DNA from: Halorubrum sp. CSM-61
GTDB taxonomy: Archaea; Halobacteriota; Halobacteria; Halobacteriales; Haloferacaceae
DNA length: 36,173 bases
Direction: 5' to 3'
Assembly: GCF_003781945.1 (NCBI RefSeq)
Contig: NZ_RJJW01000005.1
Span: forward strand, 66,299-102,471
Shown here: piece by piece, positions 5,257-31,660 of the stretch
Layout of the letters: each line of letters begins with the position of its first letter
How positions within the stretch are numbered: the first letter of the stretch is position 1
Notes under the pieces: model-generated
Told to the model about the DNA's origin: nothing
Seen by the model: the letters and a program-made list of their open reading frames with translations, nothing else
Database searches by the model: none
Program-made: the position numbers and the translations under genes

Positions 5257-5300
5257 GGTCGTGTGTCCGCAGTCTGGTCGCGCGGTCGCTACCGGCGTGG

Positions 5301-5684
5301 TCACGCGATCTGGTCGTCGTACTCGTCGGGGTCGAGCAGCCCTTCGGCGTCGCCGCCCTCGACGGGGTCGACCTCGAGCATCCACCCGTCCCCGTAGGGG
5401 TCCTCGTTGACGAGCTCCGGGCGGTCGAACAGCTCCTCGTTGACGGCGACGACCTCGCCGGAGATCGGCGCATAGAGGTCAGAGACGGCCTTGATCGATT
5501 CGACGACGCCGAACGCCTCGCCGGCGGCGATCTCGTCGCCGGCCTCGGGAAGCTCGACGAACACCACGTCGCCCAGTTCGTCCTGCGCGAAGTCGGAGAC
5601 GCCGATCCGAACGGTGTCGCCGCCGGTCGTCGCCCACTCGTGCGATTCCAGGTACCGCCTGTCGTCGGGTACTTCGAAGCTCAT
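5301..5684 (-). CDS. gcvH: Glycine cleavage system H protein
   Basis: GcvH is the small carrier that shuttles the aminomethyl group between P- and T-proteins on a lipoyl arm. The product has 127 residues, normal for the family. The lipoylation site is in [15 protein letters not shown] (Lys65), and the preceding [19 protein letters not shown] is a classic GcvH strand. The ATG at 5684 gives the usual [17 protein letters not shown]-terminus. It is the first gene of the operon. A TATA-like box at 5799-5808 implies a leader of roughly 90 nt, longer than most genes here have. The T-protein gene (gcvT), often adjacent in haloarchaea, is not present upstream. Confidence 0.95.
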
Positions 5685-5798
5685 TGGTCAGGGTCGGCGC
5701 GGTCCGCCTCCGGGATCGGTCCCTCGACCCGTTAGATCCGAGATTCGGGGTCGAAACGCGGTCCGCGACACGTGTACGTCACCCTTCTGACGACGAGG

Positions 5799-5808
5799 AA
5801 ATAAAAGG
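5799..5808 (-). promoter_or_regulatory. gcvH: Probable TATA box of the gcv operon
   Basis: On the minus strand this reads CCTTTTATTT. It lies about 115-125 bp upstream of the gcvH ATG, predicting a 5' leader of about 90 nt. It also directly follows the hairpin behind fen, so the T-rich segment may act both as terminator tail and promoter. Confidence 0.45.
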
Positions 5809-5817
5809 TGTGTTCGC

Positions 5818-5835
5818 GGCGGTCTTCCGACCGCC
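5818..5835 (-). terminator. Hairpin terminator of fen
   Basis: On the minus strand GGCGGTC-GGAA-GACCGCC forms a perfect 7-bp stem with a 4-nt loop immediately after the fen stop codon. CCTTTTATTT follows about 10 nt later. Archaeal terminators are usually just U-rich tracts, so the hairpin may be an addition, for example mRNA 3'-end protection. Confidence 0.5.
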
Positions 5836-6813
5836 TCACGTCCACCGGTCGAGCCCGGTCTGGACCTGCGACTCCGCGATGCGCTCGAACCCGCGCTCCA
5901 CCTCGTCGGGGGCGACGCCCCACTCGTCGACGACGTACTCGCGGGCGGCCTCGACGTCGGGGTCCACCGCGAGGTCCACGTCCACGTCCGTCGCCGGCGG
6001 ATCCATGAACAGCTCGCGGATCGCCTCGGCGTTCGGAATCTCGGCGCCGCGCGCGTCGAGGACGCCCCACAGGTCGCCGTGCTCCCGGACCGCCTTCACC
6101 GCCGTCTTCGGGCCGACCCCGCGGACGCCCTCGTTGAAGTCGGTGCCGCAGAGCATCGCGGCGTCGACGAGCGCCTGTCGGTCGAAGCCGAGGTCGTCGA
6201 GCGTCGCCGCGAGATCCATCAGCTCCGGGTCGCCCTTGCTCGTGAGCTGGCGGAGGGTGGTCGGCGCGCCGAAAAGCAGCGTGTCGTAGTCCTCGCTGCC
6301 GGCGTGGTCGACCGTCCCCGTCGCGGCCATGTGCGCGCACTGCGCCTCGCCCTCGGCCGGCGCCTCGACGATCGGCACGTCGAGCAGGCGGAGCAGCTCC
6401 CGGGTCGTCTCGTGAATCGCGTCGGTGAGCCGCTGCGTTCGGGCCTCAAGCCGCGCGGCCTCGATCGCGTCCCCGCGGTCCGCGGCGGCCGTCCGGCGCT
6501 CCTCGGCCCGCTCGCGCTTCTCGCGGCGGTCGGCGACCTCGTCGGCCTTTAGGTCGGTCACCGCCCCGTCGAACACCATCACGGGGATCAGGTCGTGTTC
6601 GAAGAACTTCGGGAGCCCCTGCACGACGCCGATCAGGTTGGCGACCTCGACGCCGTCGGCGGTGGTGTACGCCTCGTCGCTCGTCCACTTCACCGTCGTC
6701 GTGAGGTACCGGTACAGCCAGTTGTGCGCGTCGACGGCGACGACGCTCCCCTCGATCTCCGCGAAGGTCACGTCGCGGATCGCCGCGAGATCGCGTAAGT
6801 CCGCGTTACCCAT
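5836..6813 (-). CDS. fen: Flap endonuclease 1
   Basis: FEN1 is the structure-specific 5' nuclease that removes flaps during Okazaki fragment maturation and base-excision repair. The 325-residue product has the XPG-N region (Asp28 in [24 protein letters not shown]), the XPG-I acidic cluster ([14 protein letters not shown] and [12 protein letters not shown]) and the helix-hairpin-helix [11 protein letters not shown]. The start is the ATG at 6813, giving MGNADLRDL; the glycine at position 2 is conserved in FEN1 and contacts the active site. A TATA-like box (6838-6845) lies about 28 bp upstream. The C-terminus reads VQTGLDRWT, a PCNA-binding (PIP) box in which the last aromatic position is Thr. 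Confidence 0.95.
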
Positions 6814-17062: not shown

Positions 17063-17170
17063 GGTCGGGGTGGCCGGACGACCGGCACGTCGACGGGCCG
17101 TCTCTCAGGATCGAGATCCTCTCCTCGAAAAACACCGATGGTTCCAGCGCGGTCCTCGCTGGCGCGTCGG

Positions 17171-17578
17171 TTACACGTCTGTTTCGTTGTCCGTCTCGTT
17201 GCCCGACTCGTCGTCCGTGGCGTTCGTATCGTCGTCCGTGGCGTTCGTATCGTCGTCCGTGGCGTTCGTATCGTCGTCCGTGCCGTTCGTATCGTCGTCC
17301 GTGCCGTCGTCCGTCTCGTCTGTTCCGTCGTCCGTCCCGTCGGTACCGTCGTCCGTCCCGTCGGTGCCGTCGGTGCCGTCGTCGGTGCCGTCGGTTCCGT
17401 CGTCGGTGCCGTCGGTGCCGTCGTCGGTGCCGTCGGTTCCGTCGTCGGTGCCGTCTGTTCCGTCATCGGTGCCGTTCGAAGGCGCTTCCGGATCGTCTCC
17501 ACAGCCGGCGAGGCCGACTATTCCGGCCGCACCGACGATACTAACGAACTTTCGACGGTCGAGCTCTTTTCGTGCCAT
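17171..17578 (-). CDS. Repeat-only secreted lipoprotein
   Basis: The 135-residue protein begins with a twin-arginine-like signal (LDRRKFVSIVGAAG) and a lipobox, GLAGC, with the lipidated Cys26. After it, almost everything is low-complexity: DGTDGTD units to about residue 88, then near-perfect seven-residue units (TDDDTNA) to the end. No folded domain follows. Many haloarchaeal lipoproteins carry such acidic spacers between the lipid anchor and a binding domain, so this could be a spacer that lost its domain or a surface-charge lipoprotein in its own right. The repeat length is expected to vary among strains. The start codon is the ATG at 17578. Confidence 0.7.
   Translation of the reverse strand: MARKELDRRKFVSIVGAAGIVGLAGCGDDPEAPSNGTDDGTDGTDDGTDGTDDGTDGTDDGTDGTDDGTDGTDGTDDGTDGTDDGTDETDDGTDDDTNGTDDDTNATDDDTNATDDDTNATDDESGNETDNETDV
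17220..17470. repeat. Minisatellite within the lipoprotein gene
   Basis: The DNA encoding the Asp/Thr/Gly tract is tandemly repeated. Its clearest part is a 21-bp unit, TATCGTCGTCCGTGGCGTTC plus G, starting at 17227 and repeated about three times with single-base changes. It is followed by shorter 15- and 6-bp multiples built on GTCGTCGGTGCC. All units are multiples of 3, so expansion keeps the frame. Confidence 0.75.
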
Positions 17579-18304
17579 GGGTTGCCCCCGTTACCCCCAC
17601 TCTGCCAGTCGTCTATCGTAATGAGTCAGGTAAGGAAACAGCTGGATCGTTAAGACGAAACGATGGCGTGGAATCGGATGAAACTGAGAGATACAGTCAC
17701 TGAGACGCCATTTCTCTGGGTACGGGCGTGCGACTTTCGACCAGCGGAGATATCCGCGGACGCGTCGAGGACGGACCGCGTCTTGAGAGCGAATTCGGCG
17801 AAACTGGGCGAAATCGGGCGATCAGATGGTCCGACAAACCGGCGCGTTCGGAACCAGACACAGCGACCGGCGACGTTCCCGTCGACTCGCTTTCGGGTAT
17901 CGAGAACCTCGATTTCGGCGCGGTACCCGTCAAAACGGGCGGTGTGTTTCGGGTCTCGGCCGACGAGCGACGGCGAAACGTCCTCCGCTACTCCGAAGCG
18001 GGAATCGGCGTTTGGACGGACCCCGCGTCGAGGGCGGAACAGTTCCTCGTTCGTGCGAGCAGCACCGTGAGATCCTACTGAACGAAAAGTTAATTTAGGC
18101 ACAACGGTGTGTTTCAGGGGTAGGAACGCGGGTTCTGCATCACCCTCTAACAGATCTCAATGGCCACACGTGAATACGCGTCACCGCTACTCCGTCCACG
18201 ACTCACACCGCTTTCGAGAGCATCGTGGCTAAGACCACCGTTCACACGCCGAGCGCGGAAGAAACGGTATCGCTCGTCCGCGGCGACGAGTGGGGTCTGA
18301 GATC
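17579..18304. other. Gene-poor, less GC-biased stretch
   Basis: About 725 bp hold no gene I can recognise. Several overlapping frames are open on both strands, but none gives a typical acidic haloarchaeal protein. The G/C preference is visibly weaker than in most neighbours. A TTAATTTA-like AT patch occurs near 18089-18096. The region separates the lipoprotein from the membrane winged-helix gene and may be a decayed gene or a transferred fragment. Confidence 0.5.
17728..18081 (+). CDS. Doubtful hypothetical protein
   Basis: This is the best of the overlapping open frames in the gene-poor stretch: 117 codons from a GTG, beginning MRLSTSGDIRG. My rough codon-by-codon count gives about 70% G/C at third positions, higher than at first or second positions. 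That favours this frame slightly over the antisense one but is below the rest of the window. The product is about equally acidic and basic and has no motif, signal or membrane segment that I recognise. It may not be translated. Confidence 0.22.
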   Translation: MRLSTSGDIRGRVEDGPRLESEFGETGRNRAIRWSDKPARSEPDTATGDVPVDSLSGIENLDFGAVPVKTGGVFRVSADERRRNVLRYSEAGIGVWTDPASRAEQFLVRASSTVRSY

Positions 18305-19471
18305 ATGTACAGATTCGGCGAGTTCGGACGCGTCTGCGTCATCTGTCTCGTTCTCGTCGTCGTAGTGCTTTCGGGCGCGGTGGCCGCTCCCGGTGAAGCG
18401 TCGCCGGCGAGCAGCGAGAGTCCCGAGACTGCCCAAACGAACTCGGACGGCGTCGCGATACAGAACGTGACGCTCGAGGGCGACGGGTACGACGAGTCAC
18501 AGTACGAGACGATCGGCGACCATCCCGGGCCCCCGTTCGTCTGGCAGGAGGGGGAGCTCCACGTGAACGTCACCGTCGAGTCCCGGGGAGAGGACGGGTC
18601 GTTCGACCTCTGTGGACGGGGATTTAGCGAGGAGGGAGACTCGTCGGTGTCGTTCGACTGCGGGGAACTCCGACTGTCCGCGGACTCTACTCAGAACATT
18701 CCGCTCTCTATCGATACATGGCCGAGTAACGCGACCGGGAACCACACGATCCTGCTGGAGCTGTCCGAACGGAGCCTGAGCGACGATGAGATCGTGGACG
18801 AAAAGACGGTTCAGGTGAGGGTGATCGAACGAGAGGGCGATCTCACCGGAGACGGACTCACGAACGAGGAGGAGTTCGAGCACGGGACGGACATCACGAC
18901 TCCCGACACGTCGGGGAACGGACTGACCGACTGGGAGGAGGTGAAAAAATACGGAACGAACCCGCTGGCACTCGACACGACGGGAGACGGTGTCAACGAC
19001 GCGACGCTCGTTCGGTTAGGACTCGATCCGACCGAGCCCTACCTTCTCCACCGGTATCTGGCCGGGGCGATCGCCGGGCTGATCGCGATCGCCGGGACGG
19101 GCGTGTTGATGGTTCGTAGACGCGGGGACGAGGACGTGAATGCGAGCGACCGCTCCGCCGCGTCGGGCACCGATGGCACCGAAACGGATCGGAACGCGGC
19201 GGGCGGAACGAGCGAGGCGAATCGGTCGCCGATCGACGAGTCGATCCTGACGAACGAGGAAGTCGTTTACCGGCTTCTCGACGAAAACGAGGGGCGAATG
19301 CGACAGAGTCAGATCATCGAGTCGACGGAGTGGTCGAAGGCGAAAGTGAGCCGCGTGCTGTCGGATCTGGAGGAAAAGGAAGTCATCGACCGGGCCAGGA
19401 TCGGTCGCGAGAACGTCGTTGATCTCCGATCCGACGTCGACGACGTCGGAGTCCCGAACAGGCGGGACTAG
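18305..19471 (+). CDS. Membrane-anchored winged-helix protein with exported calcium-loop domain
   Basis: The 388-residue protein starts with a signal peptide (about 1-28). An exported domain follows (30-175) with several N-glycosylation sequons and Cys103/Cys119. Next is a block of calcium-binding DxDGxxD-like loops (about 179-240: DLTGDGLTNEEE, DTSGNGLTDWEE, DTTGDGVNDA) like thrombospondin type-3 or dockerin repeats. One membrane helix (about 251-270) is followed by an RRR stop-transfer, a Ser/Thr/Asp linker, and a cytoplasmic winged helix-turn-helix (about 312-375; QSQIIESTEWSKAKVSRVLS). The layout suggests a one-component receptor that senses something outside and binds DNA inside. Ligand and targets are unknown. 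I chose the ATG at 18305; a GTG at 18290 is possible. Confidence 0.85.
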   Translation: MYRFGEFGRVCVICLVLVVVVLSGAVAAPGEASPASSESPETAQTNSDGVAIQNVTLEGDGYDESQYETIGDHPGPPFVWQEGELHVNVTVESRGEDGSFDLCGRGFSEEGDSSVSFDCGELRLSADSTQNIPLSIDTWPSNATGNHTILLELSERSLSDDEIVDEKTVQVRVIEREGDLTGDGLTNEEEFEHGTDITTPDTSGNGLTDWEEVKKYGTNPLALDTTGDGVNDATLVRLGLDPTEPYLLHRYLAGAIAGLIAIAGTGVLMVRRRGDEDVNASDRSAASGTDGTETDRNAAGGTSEANRSPIDESILTNEEVVYRLLDENEGRMRQSQIIESTEWSKAKVSRVLSDLEEKEVIDRARIGRENVVDLRSDVDDVGVPNRRD

Positions 19472-19581
19472 CGACCGGATCAGTTGAGACCGGGCGCAGA
19501 CCGCGGCGTCGACAGCCGGTGGCCCACGATCGCCGCGCGACGGCGGGGCTCTGCGCACCGGTCTGACGCCACCGCTCCGCC

Positions 19582-27982: not shown

Positions 27983-30900
27983 CTACGATCGGTCTCCGCC
28001 GAGCCGCCGCCCCAGCATCGCGAGCGTGACCAGCGCGAGGACGGCGGCGAGGGCGCCGAATCCGGGCGTTTCGTCCTCGGGTCCGCCGTCCTCCGTGTCG
28101 CCGTCGTCCGCTCCGCCGCCTCCGCCCGTGTCGCCGTCCGCTGCGTCTCCCGCATCCGTGCCGTCGGTGTCGTCGTCGCTCCCGTCGGTCTCCCCTTCCC
28201 CGTCGGACGGTTCCTCGACGGGGTCGTCTTGGATCGGCTCGTCGTCGGTGCCGTTTTCGGGCTCGTCGATCGTGTCGTCACCTCCGCCGTCGGTCTCGTT
28301 TTCGGAGTCATCTCCGGGCGGTTCCTCGTCAGCGTCGGAGGAACCATCGTCGGATGGAGGTGGAGACGGGGACGGAGATGGAGACGGCGACGGGCTACTC
28401 GTCGTCTCGTCGCTCTCGCCCTCCACGACTTCGAACGAGACGGTCCGCGAACCGTCCGGCGTCGAGCCGGTCGCGGCGTACTCCCCGGTCGCGGTGTCGT
28501 CGTCGACGGAGACCGTGAACGTCGCGGTGCGCGTCTCCCCCGGATCGACGCCGGAGTACGTCGCCGAGTGCCGGACCCCGGTCGCCGTGTCGGCGAACGT
28601 CACCGTCACGCCGCCGGCGGCGCCGCCGTCGTTCCGGACCGTCGCCGAGAAGTCGCCGGTCGTCCCCCGCTCGATCTCGGTCGGTCCGGAGAGGTCGGTG
28701 ACGGTGAACGCGGGCGGCAGCGACAGCGCGAAGTCGACGTCGACGCTCCCGTTGGCCGGGAGCGAGAGCGTCTCGCTCGCGTCCGCGTACCCGTCTGCGG
28801 AGGCCGTGGCGTCGTATTCGCCCCGCGGGAGCGTAAGCGAGTAGTCGCCGTCGGCGCCGGTCGCGTCCGATCGCGATCCGACGGTCACCGTCGCCCCGTC
28901 GACCGGGTCGCCGGTCGCGTCCGCGGTGACGGTTCCCGACAGCGTCGCGGGCTTCGGGTCGAGGGCGAGAGTCAGGTCGGTCGTCGCGTTCGGACCGATC
29001 TCGACGTCGCTCACCGTCGTCGGATCGAAGTCCGGCGCGTCCGCCGTCACGTCGTAGGTCCCGGGTCGGAGCGCCGCTTCGTAGGCGCCGTCCGAGTTCG
29101 CGTCGACCGTCGCGACCCGATCGCCGGTCGCGTTCGCCACGGTGACGGTCGCGTTGCCGGGGGCGTCGAGCGCGTCGGTCGCGCCCACGACCCCCGAGAG
29201 CGTCCCGTTCCGCAGCGCGAGCGAGAGGTTCACTGTCGCCGTGTCGCCCGACCCGCCCAGCGTCGCGCTCGCGGTCGCCGGGGCGTAGGTCGCGTTGCTC
29301 CCGGTGACGGTCAGGTCGGCGGCCGGCACGTCGACCGCGTAGGTTCCGTCCGCCCCGGTCGCCGTCTCGCCGACGACCTCGGTGCCGTTCCGGACGACCA
29401 CGTCGATCCCCGGAAGCGCCGCCGCCGTTTCCGCGTCCGTGACGGTCCCGTCGACCGTTCCGACCGCCTCGGCGACCCGGATCGACGCCGCCTCGTCGTC
29501 GTCCGGCGTGGCGACCGCGAGCGTCGTCGATCCGGTCGTCAGGTCGTCGGGAACGGTTCCGGAAAGCGACAGGGTCGTCGCGTTTCCGGCCCCGAGCGAG
29601 ACGTTCGCCGCGTTCAGCACGCGCACGTCGCTCGCGTTTTCGGGGTCCGCGAGTCGGAGTTCGACGGTGCGGTTGTCTCCCGCGGTGCCGCCGTGATTCG
29701 TCACGTTCGCGGCCGCGTCGAGCGTCGCGTTGCGCTCGACGATCGACGGCGCGGTGGGGTTCGTCACCTCGTAGAACGGCCCGTCGACCACCGATATCTC
29801 GCTCGTCAGATTCGAGTCGTCGGTGTACGCGCCGTGGTCGTAGGTCCGACCGGTCTCCGTGTCCGCGGGCACGACGTACGAGAACGAGACGGTCGTCTCC
29901 TCGCCGGGCCGGAGCGAGACGTTCGCCTCGTCGCCGTCGCTCCCGTTGAACCGGTACTCGACCGTCCCCGATCCGGGGTCCTCGCCGGTGTTGTTGACCG
30001 TCGCCGTCGCCTCGACCGTGGCTCCCGGCGCGGTCTCGTCCGGCGCGTCGAACGCGGTCACCGTGAGGTTCGAGCGGTCCTCGGTCACCCTTTCGACCGC
30101 CGCGTAGCCGTCGACGACGCCGGTTCCGTAGCGGTCGTCCGGCTCGGTGGCGTCGTCGGGGTGGTTCGCTGTGTCACGGAGCGCGTCGTACAGCTCGTCG
30201 TCGGAGAGGTCCCGCGCGCTCGCCGAGAGCATCAGCGCGGCGACGCCGGAGACGTGCGGGGCGGCCATGGAGGTGCCCGAGTACGTGCCGTCGTACCCGC
30301 CGCCAGGGACCGACGAGTACACGTTCACGCCCGGCGCGGACACGTCCGGGACCACGTACTCGTCGGGCCAATCTGCGGGGGCGTCGCTCCCCCACGCGTT
30401 CGACGTGTCGATCGTCTCTCCGCTGGAGAAGTCGGCGACGCCACGGCCGTCGTCAACCGCGCCGACCGCGAGGGAGTCGTAGACGTTACCGGGCGAGCTC
30501 GACGTTCCGTGGCCGCTGTTCCCCGAGGACACGACGACGATCTTCCCGGCGCCGCGGGCGTTCCGAACCGGCTCGACGAAATCCGCGTAATACCCGTCCG
30601 CACCGAGGCTCATCTGAAGCACGTCGACGTCGGAATCCTGCGTCGCGTGTTCCATTCCCGCGATGACCCGGGCGAACGTCGCGTTTGTCCTGTCGTCGTC
30701 GAACACCTTGATCCCGTGGAGCGACGCGGTCGGCGCGACGCCGATCGCGGTCCCGCTCGCGTTTCCGCCCGCCACGGTGCCGGCGACGTGAGTTCCGTGC
30801 CCGTCCCCGTCCGACGCGTCGGACACGTCGTCGCTCACCAGGTTCCCCTCGGCGTCGTACTCCGCCCACCCGCTCACGTTCAGGTCCGGGTGGTCGGGGT

Positions 30901-31660
30901 CGATTCCCGTATCGATCACCGCGACCGTCGCCCCGTCCCCGCGGGTTCCGAACGTCTCCCAGACTTCGGGCGCGCGAACCATCTCGACGCCGTAGGTCGC
31001 GTCGGTCGAGGCGGTAGAGACGCTCTTCGGCGTGGGAGTCGGCGTCGCACCGGCGAGCGCGGTGTCGGCGCCCCCCGCGGCCGCCGAGTCGAGTTCGACC
31101 CGGAAGTTCTCGTGGACGCGATCGACGCCCCGCACGTCGAGGAGTCGCTGCGCCGCAACGCTCTCGGTGTCGACCGTGACGAGCATCGCGTTCGCGAGCC
31201 AGAATCTCCGCTCGACCGTGACGCCGGGCTTCCGCTCGGCGAACGCCTCGAAGCCGGCCTGCGCGTTCGCGGCGTTCGTCTTGAGGTCGTTCGCGGAGGA
31301 CGTCGCCGAGCCCCTCGAACTCTCCGGTCCGACGCCTCCGCCATCTCCGCCGCCTCCGCCGCCGGACCCGGGACCCGCGTCGTCCGCGAACCGGACCACG
31401 ATCTCGACGGTACCGTTCGCCGAGCGGAGGCCGGGCGGAACGGCGTCGCTCTCCGGGGCGAAGCCGGAACCGACCGCGGCGGGGCCGGTCGGCACGGGTT
31501 CGTCCCCGACGGAAGCGACCGCTTCCGTGTCACCCGATCCGGCACCGTCAACGGCGAAGCCGCCCGCGACCACCCCCGGCGCGACGGCCGCGATGAGCAG
31601 GCACGCCGCGAGAGTGATCGCTACCGCATTTACATATGAAAAATGCGACGTATCGCTCAC
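27983..31660 (-). CDS. Cell-surface subtilisin-like serine protease with PGF-CTERM anchor
   Basis: The 1,225-residue S8 protease has a Sec-type signal (about 10-36) and a propeptide-like region (80-205). The catalytic domain (about 225-520) has Asp250 (VIDTGID), His288 (GHGTHVAGT), oxyanion Asn381 (SSGNSGHG) and Ser464 (GTSMAAPHVSG). Downstream come two CARDB-like modules (about 530-735), three carboxypeptidase-regulatory-like beta modules (740-985) and a third CARDB-like module (985-1090). A Pro/Ser then Asp/Glu/Gly stalk (1090-1195) follows. The C-terminus is PGFGALAAVLALVTLAMLGR followed by Arg, a PGF-CTERM signal processed and lipid-linked by archaeosortase ArtA. It probably digests extracellular protein while tethered to the cell. 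The start is a GTG with a TATA box (31684-31690) about 27 bp upstream. Confidence 0.95.
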   Translation of the reverse strand: MSDTSHFSYVNAVAITLAACLLIAAVAPGVVAGGFAVDGAGSGDTEAVASVGDEPVPTGPAAVGSGFAPESDAVPPGLRSANGTVEIVVRFADDAGPGSGGGGGGDGGGVGPESSRGSATSSANDLKTNAANAQAGFEAFAERKPGVTVERRFWLANAMLVTVDTESVAAQRLLDVRGVDRVHENFRVELDSAAAGGADTALAGATPTPTPKSVSTASTDATYGVEMVRAPEVWETFGTRGDGATVAVIDTGIDPDHPDLNVSGWAEYDAEGNLVSDDVSDASDGDGHGTHVAGTVAGGNASGTAIGVAPTASLHGIKVFDDDRTNATFARVIAGMEHATQDSDVDVLQMSLGADGYYADFVEPVRNARGAGKIVVVSSGNSGHGTSSSPGNVYDSLAVGAVDDGRGVADFSSGETIDTSNAWGSDAPADWPDEYVVPDVSAPGVNVYSSVPGGGYDGTYSGTSMAAPHVSGVAALMLSASARDLSDDELYDALRDTANHPDDATEPDDRYGTGVVDGYAAVERVTEDRSNLTVTAFDAPDETAPGATVEATATVNNTGEDPGSGTVEYRFNGSDGDEANVSLRPGEETTVSFSYVVPADTETGRTYDHGAYTDDSNLTSEISVVDGPFYEVTNPTAPSIVERNATLDAAANVTNHGGTAGDNRTVELRLADPENASDVRVLNAANVSLGAGNATTLSLSGTVPDDLTTGSTTLAVATPDDDEAASIRVAEAVGTVDGTVTDAETAAALPGIDVVVRNGTEVVGETATGADGTYAVDVPAADLTVTGSNATYAPATASATLGGSGDTATVNLSLALRNGTLSGVVGATDALDAPGNATVTVANATGDRVATVDANSDGAYEAALRPGTYDVTADAPDFDPTTVSDVEIGPNATTDLTLALDPKPATLSGTVTADATGDPVDGATVTVGSRSDATGADGDYSLTLPRGEYDATASADGYADASETLSLPANGSVDVDFALSLPPAFTVTDLSGPTEIERGTTGDFSATVRNDGGAAGGVTVTFADTATGVRHSATYSGVDPGETRTATFTVSVDDDTATGEYAATGSTPDGSRTVSFEVVEGESDETTSSPSPSPSPSPSPPPSDDGSSDADEEPPGDDSENETDGGGDDTIDEPENGTDDEPIQDDPVEEPSDGEGETDGSDDDTDGTDAGDAADGDTGGGGGADDGDTEDGGPEDETPGFGALAAVLALVTLAMLGRRLGGDRS

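Follow-up and report, generated by a model that had tools for sequence, protein, structure and literature searches.

Membrane-tethered regulators form a known class, the TTRs, in which a DNA-binding domain and a membrane span reside in one protein with no separate kinase or receiver (PMC10269533). An archaeal example is ArnR, which together with ArnR1 of Sulfolobus provides membrane-bound one-component regulation of surface structures (PMC6396743). Both carry an N-terminal HTH, cytoplasmic HAMP and sensor domains and two C-terminal membrane helices, and possess no exported sensor. Exported sensors do occur in the CadC/ToxR and VtrA/VtrC co-component systems, where a membrane-tethered winged helix-turn-helix (wHTH) often has an adjacent membrane partner; the wHTH of CadC/ToxR is N-terminal and its sensor C-terminal, while the partner in VtrA/VtrC is an exported sensor devoid of a DNA-binding domain (PMC9214523). 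Haloarchaea themselves possess DUF7345-TM-DUF7343 proteins (PF24036 and PF24034), which consist of an exported domain, one membrane helix and a C-terminal wHTH, in that order.

Here, a 36,173-nucleotide stretch of Halorubrum sp. CSM-61 (the window) is analyzed by computation, with a focus on a single protein, hereafter the receptor (Table 1). It shares the wHTH and the domain order of the DUF7345-TM-DUF7343 proteins, three of which are its paralogues in the source genome (DUF7345 was shown by Pfam in the two that were scanned, L001 and L003). However, its own exported part is Ig-like plus TSP3, and no DUF7345 match was found there by Pfam up to an E value of 5. The order is the reverse of that in CadC/ToxR. 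Unlike the VtrA/VtrC partner, the DUF7344 proteins encoded beside many of its relatives have a wHTH of their own and almost no exported part. The TSP3-DUF7343 architecture of haloarchaea is apparently undescribed. The text of the TTR survey, which covered the class and not the TSP3-DUF7343 family, has no mention of TSP3, calcium or haloarchaea (PMC10269533). Within the partial coverage of the literature searched, neither the architecture with its DUF7344 pairing nor any paper mentioning DUF7343 or DUF7344, or TSP3 together with Halobacteria, was found, and public plasmid records label relatives only as HTH, MarR-family or TSP3 proteins.

Table 1. Coordinates in the window of the receptor gene, its domains and the surrounding features
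Feature	Position	Strand	Remark
Insertion with lipoprotein, partner remnant and receptor, at the DUF1611 gene–folD junction	17068..19572		Empty site in six relatives
Tat-type lipoprotein with Asp/Thr/Gly repeats	17171..17578	-	Syntenic with the receptor in G009
Decayed N-terminal DUF7344 partner remnant	17800..17997	+	tblastn with the Halorubrum sp. Hd13 partner: E 8e-14, 48% identity
TATA-like non-coding element TTAATTTAGGCACAAC upstream of the receptor	18090..18105	+	One copy per genome, in 3/3 orthologue-bearing Halorubrum genomes
Second conserved upstream element GGCCACACGTGAATACGC, containing CACGTG	18162..18179	+	Sole exact copy per genome lies upstream of the receptor
Receptor gene P0001, 388 aa	18305..19471	+	Open from ATG (18305) to stop (19471)
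Three TSP3/EF-like loop modules, residues 178-245	18836..19039	+	T/S/T at ligand position 3
DUF7343 (PF24034) winged helix-turn-helix, residues 314-374	19244..19426	+	Pfam E 2.1e-25; model

Anatomy of the receptor

Two orthologues, 69-70% identical to the receptor, have the same start codon position, and the closest among named records belongs to Halorubrum sp. Hd13 (L171); the genus-level comparison set comprised 52 genomes, all Halorubrum. These same-start orthologues, together with low dN/dS in two domains, identify the receptor as a real gene. Its hydrophobic helices lie at residues ~7-34, which are signal-peptide-like, and 247-274, the membrane helix. Because the former is N-terminal and the latter bears RRR on its C-terminal side, the HTH is predicted to be cytoplasmic. 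An AlphaFold2 model built on an alignment of 45 haloarchaeal relatives (mean pLDDT 81.6, mostly above 90 in the folded parts, with disordered linkers) comprises a beta-sandwich at ~50-177, three loop-helix modules at 178-245, the membrane helix, a long, low-confidence linker at 279-311 and a winged helix at 317-374 with H-E-H-H-E-E topology. The original prediction, made from the sequence alone, had envisaged just such a single polypeptide, with a signal-peptide-like helix, an exported domain, three loops, one membrane helix and a wHTH, and this anatomy holds. Structure and topology prediction, proposed there as a check, recovered the wHTH on the predicted inner side and modeled the loop modules. 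Pfam and AlphaFold2 together thus support a predicted transmembrane regulator whose exported domain is joined to a winged helix in the cytoplasm; as in TTRs, a single protein combines a DNA-binding domain with one or more membrane helices.

The ectodomain at 50-177 is Ig-like and features conserved W80, C103 and C119, the Trp and the two Cys being nearly invariant among the 45 relatives. A Foldseek search of the PDB returned generic Ig-like beta sandwiches, NPC2, RhoGDI and GH3 accessory domains, with TM-scores of at most 0.62 by target length, yielding a fold class and no ligand. The winged helix had been considered MarR/IclR-like. It instead matches DUF7343 at 88.8 bits against a Pfam cut-off of 27.6, and both other memberships are rejected, as MarR_2 reaches 22.1 bits against a cut-off of 27 and HTH_IclR 20.1 against 22.

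TSP3/EF-like loops under purifying selection

The receptor loops read DLTGDGLTNEEE, DTSGNGLTDWEE and DTTGDGVNDATL. Earlier described as DxDGxxD-like, they are indeed three in number and of the TSP3/EF-like class, but the motif is approximate, none being literally DxDGxxD. The TSP3_bac (PF18884) match at residues 182-196 scores 23.9 bits against the Pfam cut-off of 25; a diverged homologue, P0004, scores 69.8 bits. TSP3/EF calcium loops carry acidic ligands at positions 1, 3, 5 and 12, a pattern from which the receptor departs: position 3 is T, S and T in the three loops, with no Asp in any, and loop 3 has L in place of Glu at position 12. Across the family, by comparison, position 3 is D in 349 of 383 loops (91%) and position 12 is E in 352 of 383 (92%). 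The T/S/T pattern is common to a deeper outgroup, L174, and the variant in loops 1 and 3 to both Halorubrum orthologues, so that it is old and stable and not a product of recent decay.

Few parts of the receptor are as constrained as the TSP3 region. Two comparisons with the window protein gave dN/dS values of 0.12-0.20 for TSP3 and 0.21-0.26 for the wHTH, against 0.96-1.20 for the cytoplasmic linker; the receptor is under purifying selection in its TSP3 and winged-helix parts. The loops are clearly of structural importance. Their number, however, varies among relatives (2 to 11), a range at least as compatible with a stalk as with a sensor. Given this range and the missing position-3 Asp, the divalent-cation or calcium sensing originally suggested is not supported.

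An inserted locus with a decayed partner

Six close relatives have folD and the DUF1611 gene adjacent, ~100 bp apart. Homology of the window to these empty-site relatives stops at ~17067 and restarts at ~19573, delimiting an insert of ~2.5 kb with a GC content of 62.9% versus 70.5% for the rest of the window. The empty site confirms the earlier suggestion of an accessory locus, and the neighboring repeat lipoprotein and low-bias stretch on which attention had been drawn are likewise real. The gene order within the insert, lipoprotein, partner remnant and receptor, matches that in genome G009. Only the N-terminal part of the partner persists, the remainder of the DUF7344 gene being missing. A genome-wide search recovers this remnant (G000:C7:84110-84295), and the next-best DUF7344 proteins of the source genome show 36-46% identity versus 48% for the remnant. 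The window receptor consequently stands beside this remnant alone and no intact same-strand DUF7344 gene, whereas Halorubrum sp. Hd13 and G009 retain an intact partner; their divergent GYD gene is also absent from the window region. The body of the lipoprotein consists of tandem repeats with a 21-nt DNA period, and its N-terminus recurs by the receptor locus of G009 (L046:11068-11589), where the repeat tail differs. Elsewhere in the window, a 1225-aa ORF (27983-31660, minus strand) probably encodes a large surface protein; the N-terminal region has a hydrophobic segment and the C-terminal region a membrane helix.

Three Halorubrum species share both upstream blocks unchanged or almost unchanged, and the first, ~200 bp ahead of the receptor start codon, resembles a TATA region. 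Since extra copies in the three genomes amount to one 2-mismatch match to the second element (in G032), the elements reveal no regulon, and a regulon defined by them was rejected. A possible small ORF directly upstream of the receptor, ATGGCCACACGTGAA..., was dismissed as non-coding: gaps among the orthologues are not divisible by three, and one has no ATG. On the strength of low dN/dS in the loops and wHTH and the preservation of both upstream blocks, the receptor gene looks maintained.

DUF7344 partners of the relatives

The DUF7344 partner proteins (P0005/P0006) consist of a winged helix followed by two membrane helices. A same-strand DUF7344 gene lies at most 1.5 kb away in 31 of 54 named TSP3-class loci, spanning 15 genera or unnamed lineages, although these counts are phylogenetically non-independent, with Haloferax and Haloarcula weighing heavily; the other 23 loci have no such neighbor. 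Two controls were negative: a DUF7344 neighbor occurs in 0/26 DUF7343 loci that the same scan scored at fewer than two loops, and in 0/30 DUF7343 loci of Halorubrum (1.5 kb flanks), which further distinguishes the receptor family from the DUF7345-TM-DUF7343 proteins. Because genomes carry 10-34 DUF7344 copies, chance adjacency is estimated at ~1%. Mapped on a tree, the pairing label requires 10 changes versus 19 with shuffled labels, and 0/500 shuffles were as low, which speaks to clustering of the pairing and not to its independence.

The arrangement varies among lineages. Haloarcula and relatives (L140, L142, L146, L149, L151, L161 and L166) possess two tandem DUF7344 genes downstream of the receptor and not one upstream. 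Upstream of the receptor in L123-L129, a conserved block, GATTCATATTG, separates it from the DUF7344 gene in five Haloferax loci and is nearly preserved in Halobellus; the block is a possible promoter or operator.

Distribution and surface-glycan context

Of 170 genomes in the source organism's family, 26, from 9 of 28 genera, carry the TSP3-TM-DUF7343 architecture according to a profile built from four homologues; a scan of named genomes extends the list to Haloferax, Halobellus, Halogranum, Haladaptatus, Haloprofundus, Haloarcula, Halococcus and Halovivax, among others. Among 393 genomes of the phylum, the best matches listed from beyond the order cover TSP3 regions only, and spread beyond haloarchaea was accordingly rejected. 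A viral origin was also rejected, the viral-contig matches being confined to TSP3 with none extending to the wHTH part.

Many family loci are surface-polysaccharide clusters. Receptor neighbors in Haloferax and Halobellus include a DegT aminotransferase, a GFO/IDH oxidoreductase, a family 2 glycosyltransferase (GT2) and a flippase, and those in Haladaptatus and Haloprofundus a UDP-sugar dehydrogenase, GlmS and a phosphomutase (PGM). Other receptors reside in non-glycan contexts, beside pyruvate dehydrogenase genes (L078-L080) or haem genes (L093, L096), so that the association with glycan genes is strong in certain branches and missing from others. No glycan genes lie beside the window receptor at its locus in the source genome. 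The search for conserved neighbors that the original prediction had recommended turned up the DUF7344 gene and, in many of the loci, surface-glycan genes; that prediction had noticed neither these nor the partner remnant beside the window receptor. Natrialbaceae and relatives (L180, L183-L201, at ~5300-6400) encode a short DUF7343 protein with one membrane helix and no TSP3 stalk; the genes of these stalkless proteins adjoin UDP-sugar dehydrogenase and/or GlmS genes, mostly lying between both. Small PadR-like regulators, an assignment confirmed by Pfam for L045 only, also recur beside the receptor gene (L045:6734-7048; L085:9055 and 12753; L087:6118 and 6775).

Proposed mechanism and its alternatives

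The reading that we favor, with slightly better than even confidence, is that the receptor regulates surface-glycan genes as a one-component, membrane-tethered protein with a single membrane pass, the window copy being a relocated orphan. Its Ig-like domain would stand outside the cell, lifted off the membrane by the short TSP3 stalk, and may sense the state of the cell surface, be it surface glycan, the S-layer or another surface ligand. The single membrane helix would transmit a conformational or oligomeric-state change to the cytoplasmic DUF7343 winged helix, which we infer to bind and act on DNA while remaining in the membrane. The receptors of relatives would work beside the second membrane-tethered wHTH protein, DUF7344, possibly in contact with it, and control neighboring surface-polysaccharide or sugar-nucleotide genes; action with DUF7344 on surface-polysaccharide genes is probable there. 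The window gene would have moved with the lipoprotein into the folD-DUF1611 junction, where the partner decayed. Owing to this relocation and decay, the window receptor probably works by itself, either at its own promoter or at genes located elsewhere.

Three other readings compete with this regulator. That the protein is a divalent-cation sensor, whose stalk is stiffened by Ca2+ or Mg2+ on the three loops so as to switch the wHTH, is unlikely. The loops are the most conserved portion of the exported part, the family profile matches solved EF-hand/loop proteins, lanmodulin and a biofilm-associated surface protein among them, and S-layer assembly in Haloferax requires Ca2+ (PMC8640222). However, the departures from the family ligand pattern, the age and stability of the T/S/T variant and the stalk-like variation in repeat number all weigh against cation sensing, and the high cation levels of salt lakes could keep the loops permanently filled. 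We regard as quite improbable a proteolytic release, in which a signal would cause first the exported domain and next the membrane helix to be cut, so that the wHTH could act in soluble form, as repressor or activator. The fast-evolving linker between membrane helix and wHTH would suit it, as would the Natrialbaceae proteins in the UDP-sugar dehydrogenase/GlmS slot, which retain membrane helix and wHTH and dispense with the stalk. Yet neither a conserved cleavage motif nor a protease neighbor was seen, and membrane-bound regulators that work without release are common (PMC10269533).

Finally, the receptor could be what is left of a transferred polysaccharide locus, now decaying and without function, which we consider highly improbable. 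Its partner is a truncated pseudogene, the GYD gene is lost, the locus is no longer in a glycan cluster, and GC3 is 0.80 versus 0.87-0.88 in the orthologues. Against such decay, the 388-codon frame is intact, comparisons with the window copy put dN/dS at 0.12-0.26 for the loops and wHTH, and both upstream elements are preserved intact.

Significance

Little is established about how haloarchaea monitor their envelope and adapt their surface glycans or exopolysaccharide. A conserved pair of membrane-tethered wHTH proteins at surface-glycan loci is a direct, testable candidate, and tractable Haloferax species possess the pair. More tentatively, as a possible though doubtful extension, the TSP3-stalked DUF7343 receptor and DUF7344 may constitute an undescribed two-protein surface-to-promoter module, in which mixed binding at one promoter would match surface-polysaccharide synthesis to the state of the envelope and of which the window copy would be a natural solo version. 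The conserved pair likewise provides a concrete hypothesis for the unnamed Pfam domains DUF7343 and DUF7344, and the window copy, having lost its partner, offers a natural test of the receptor working alone.
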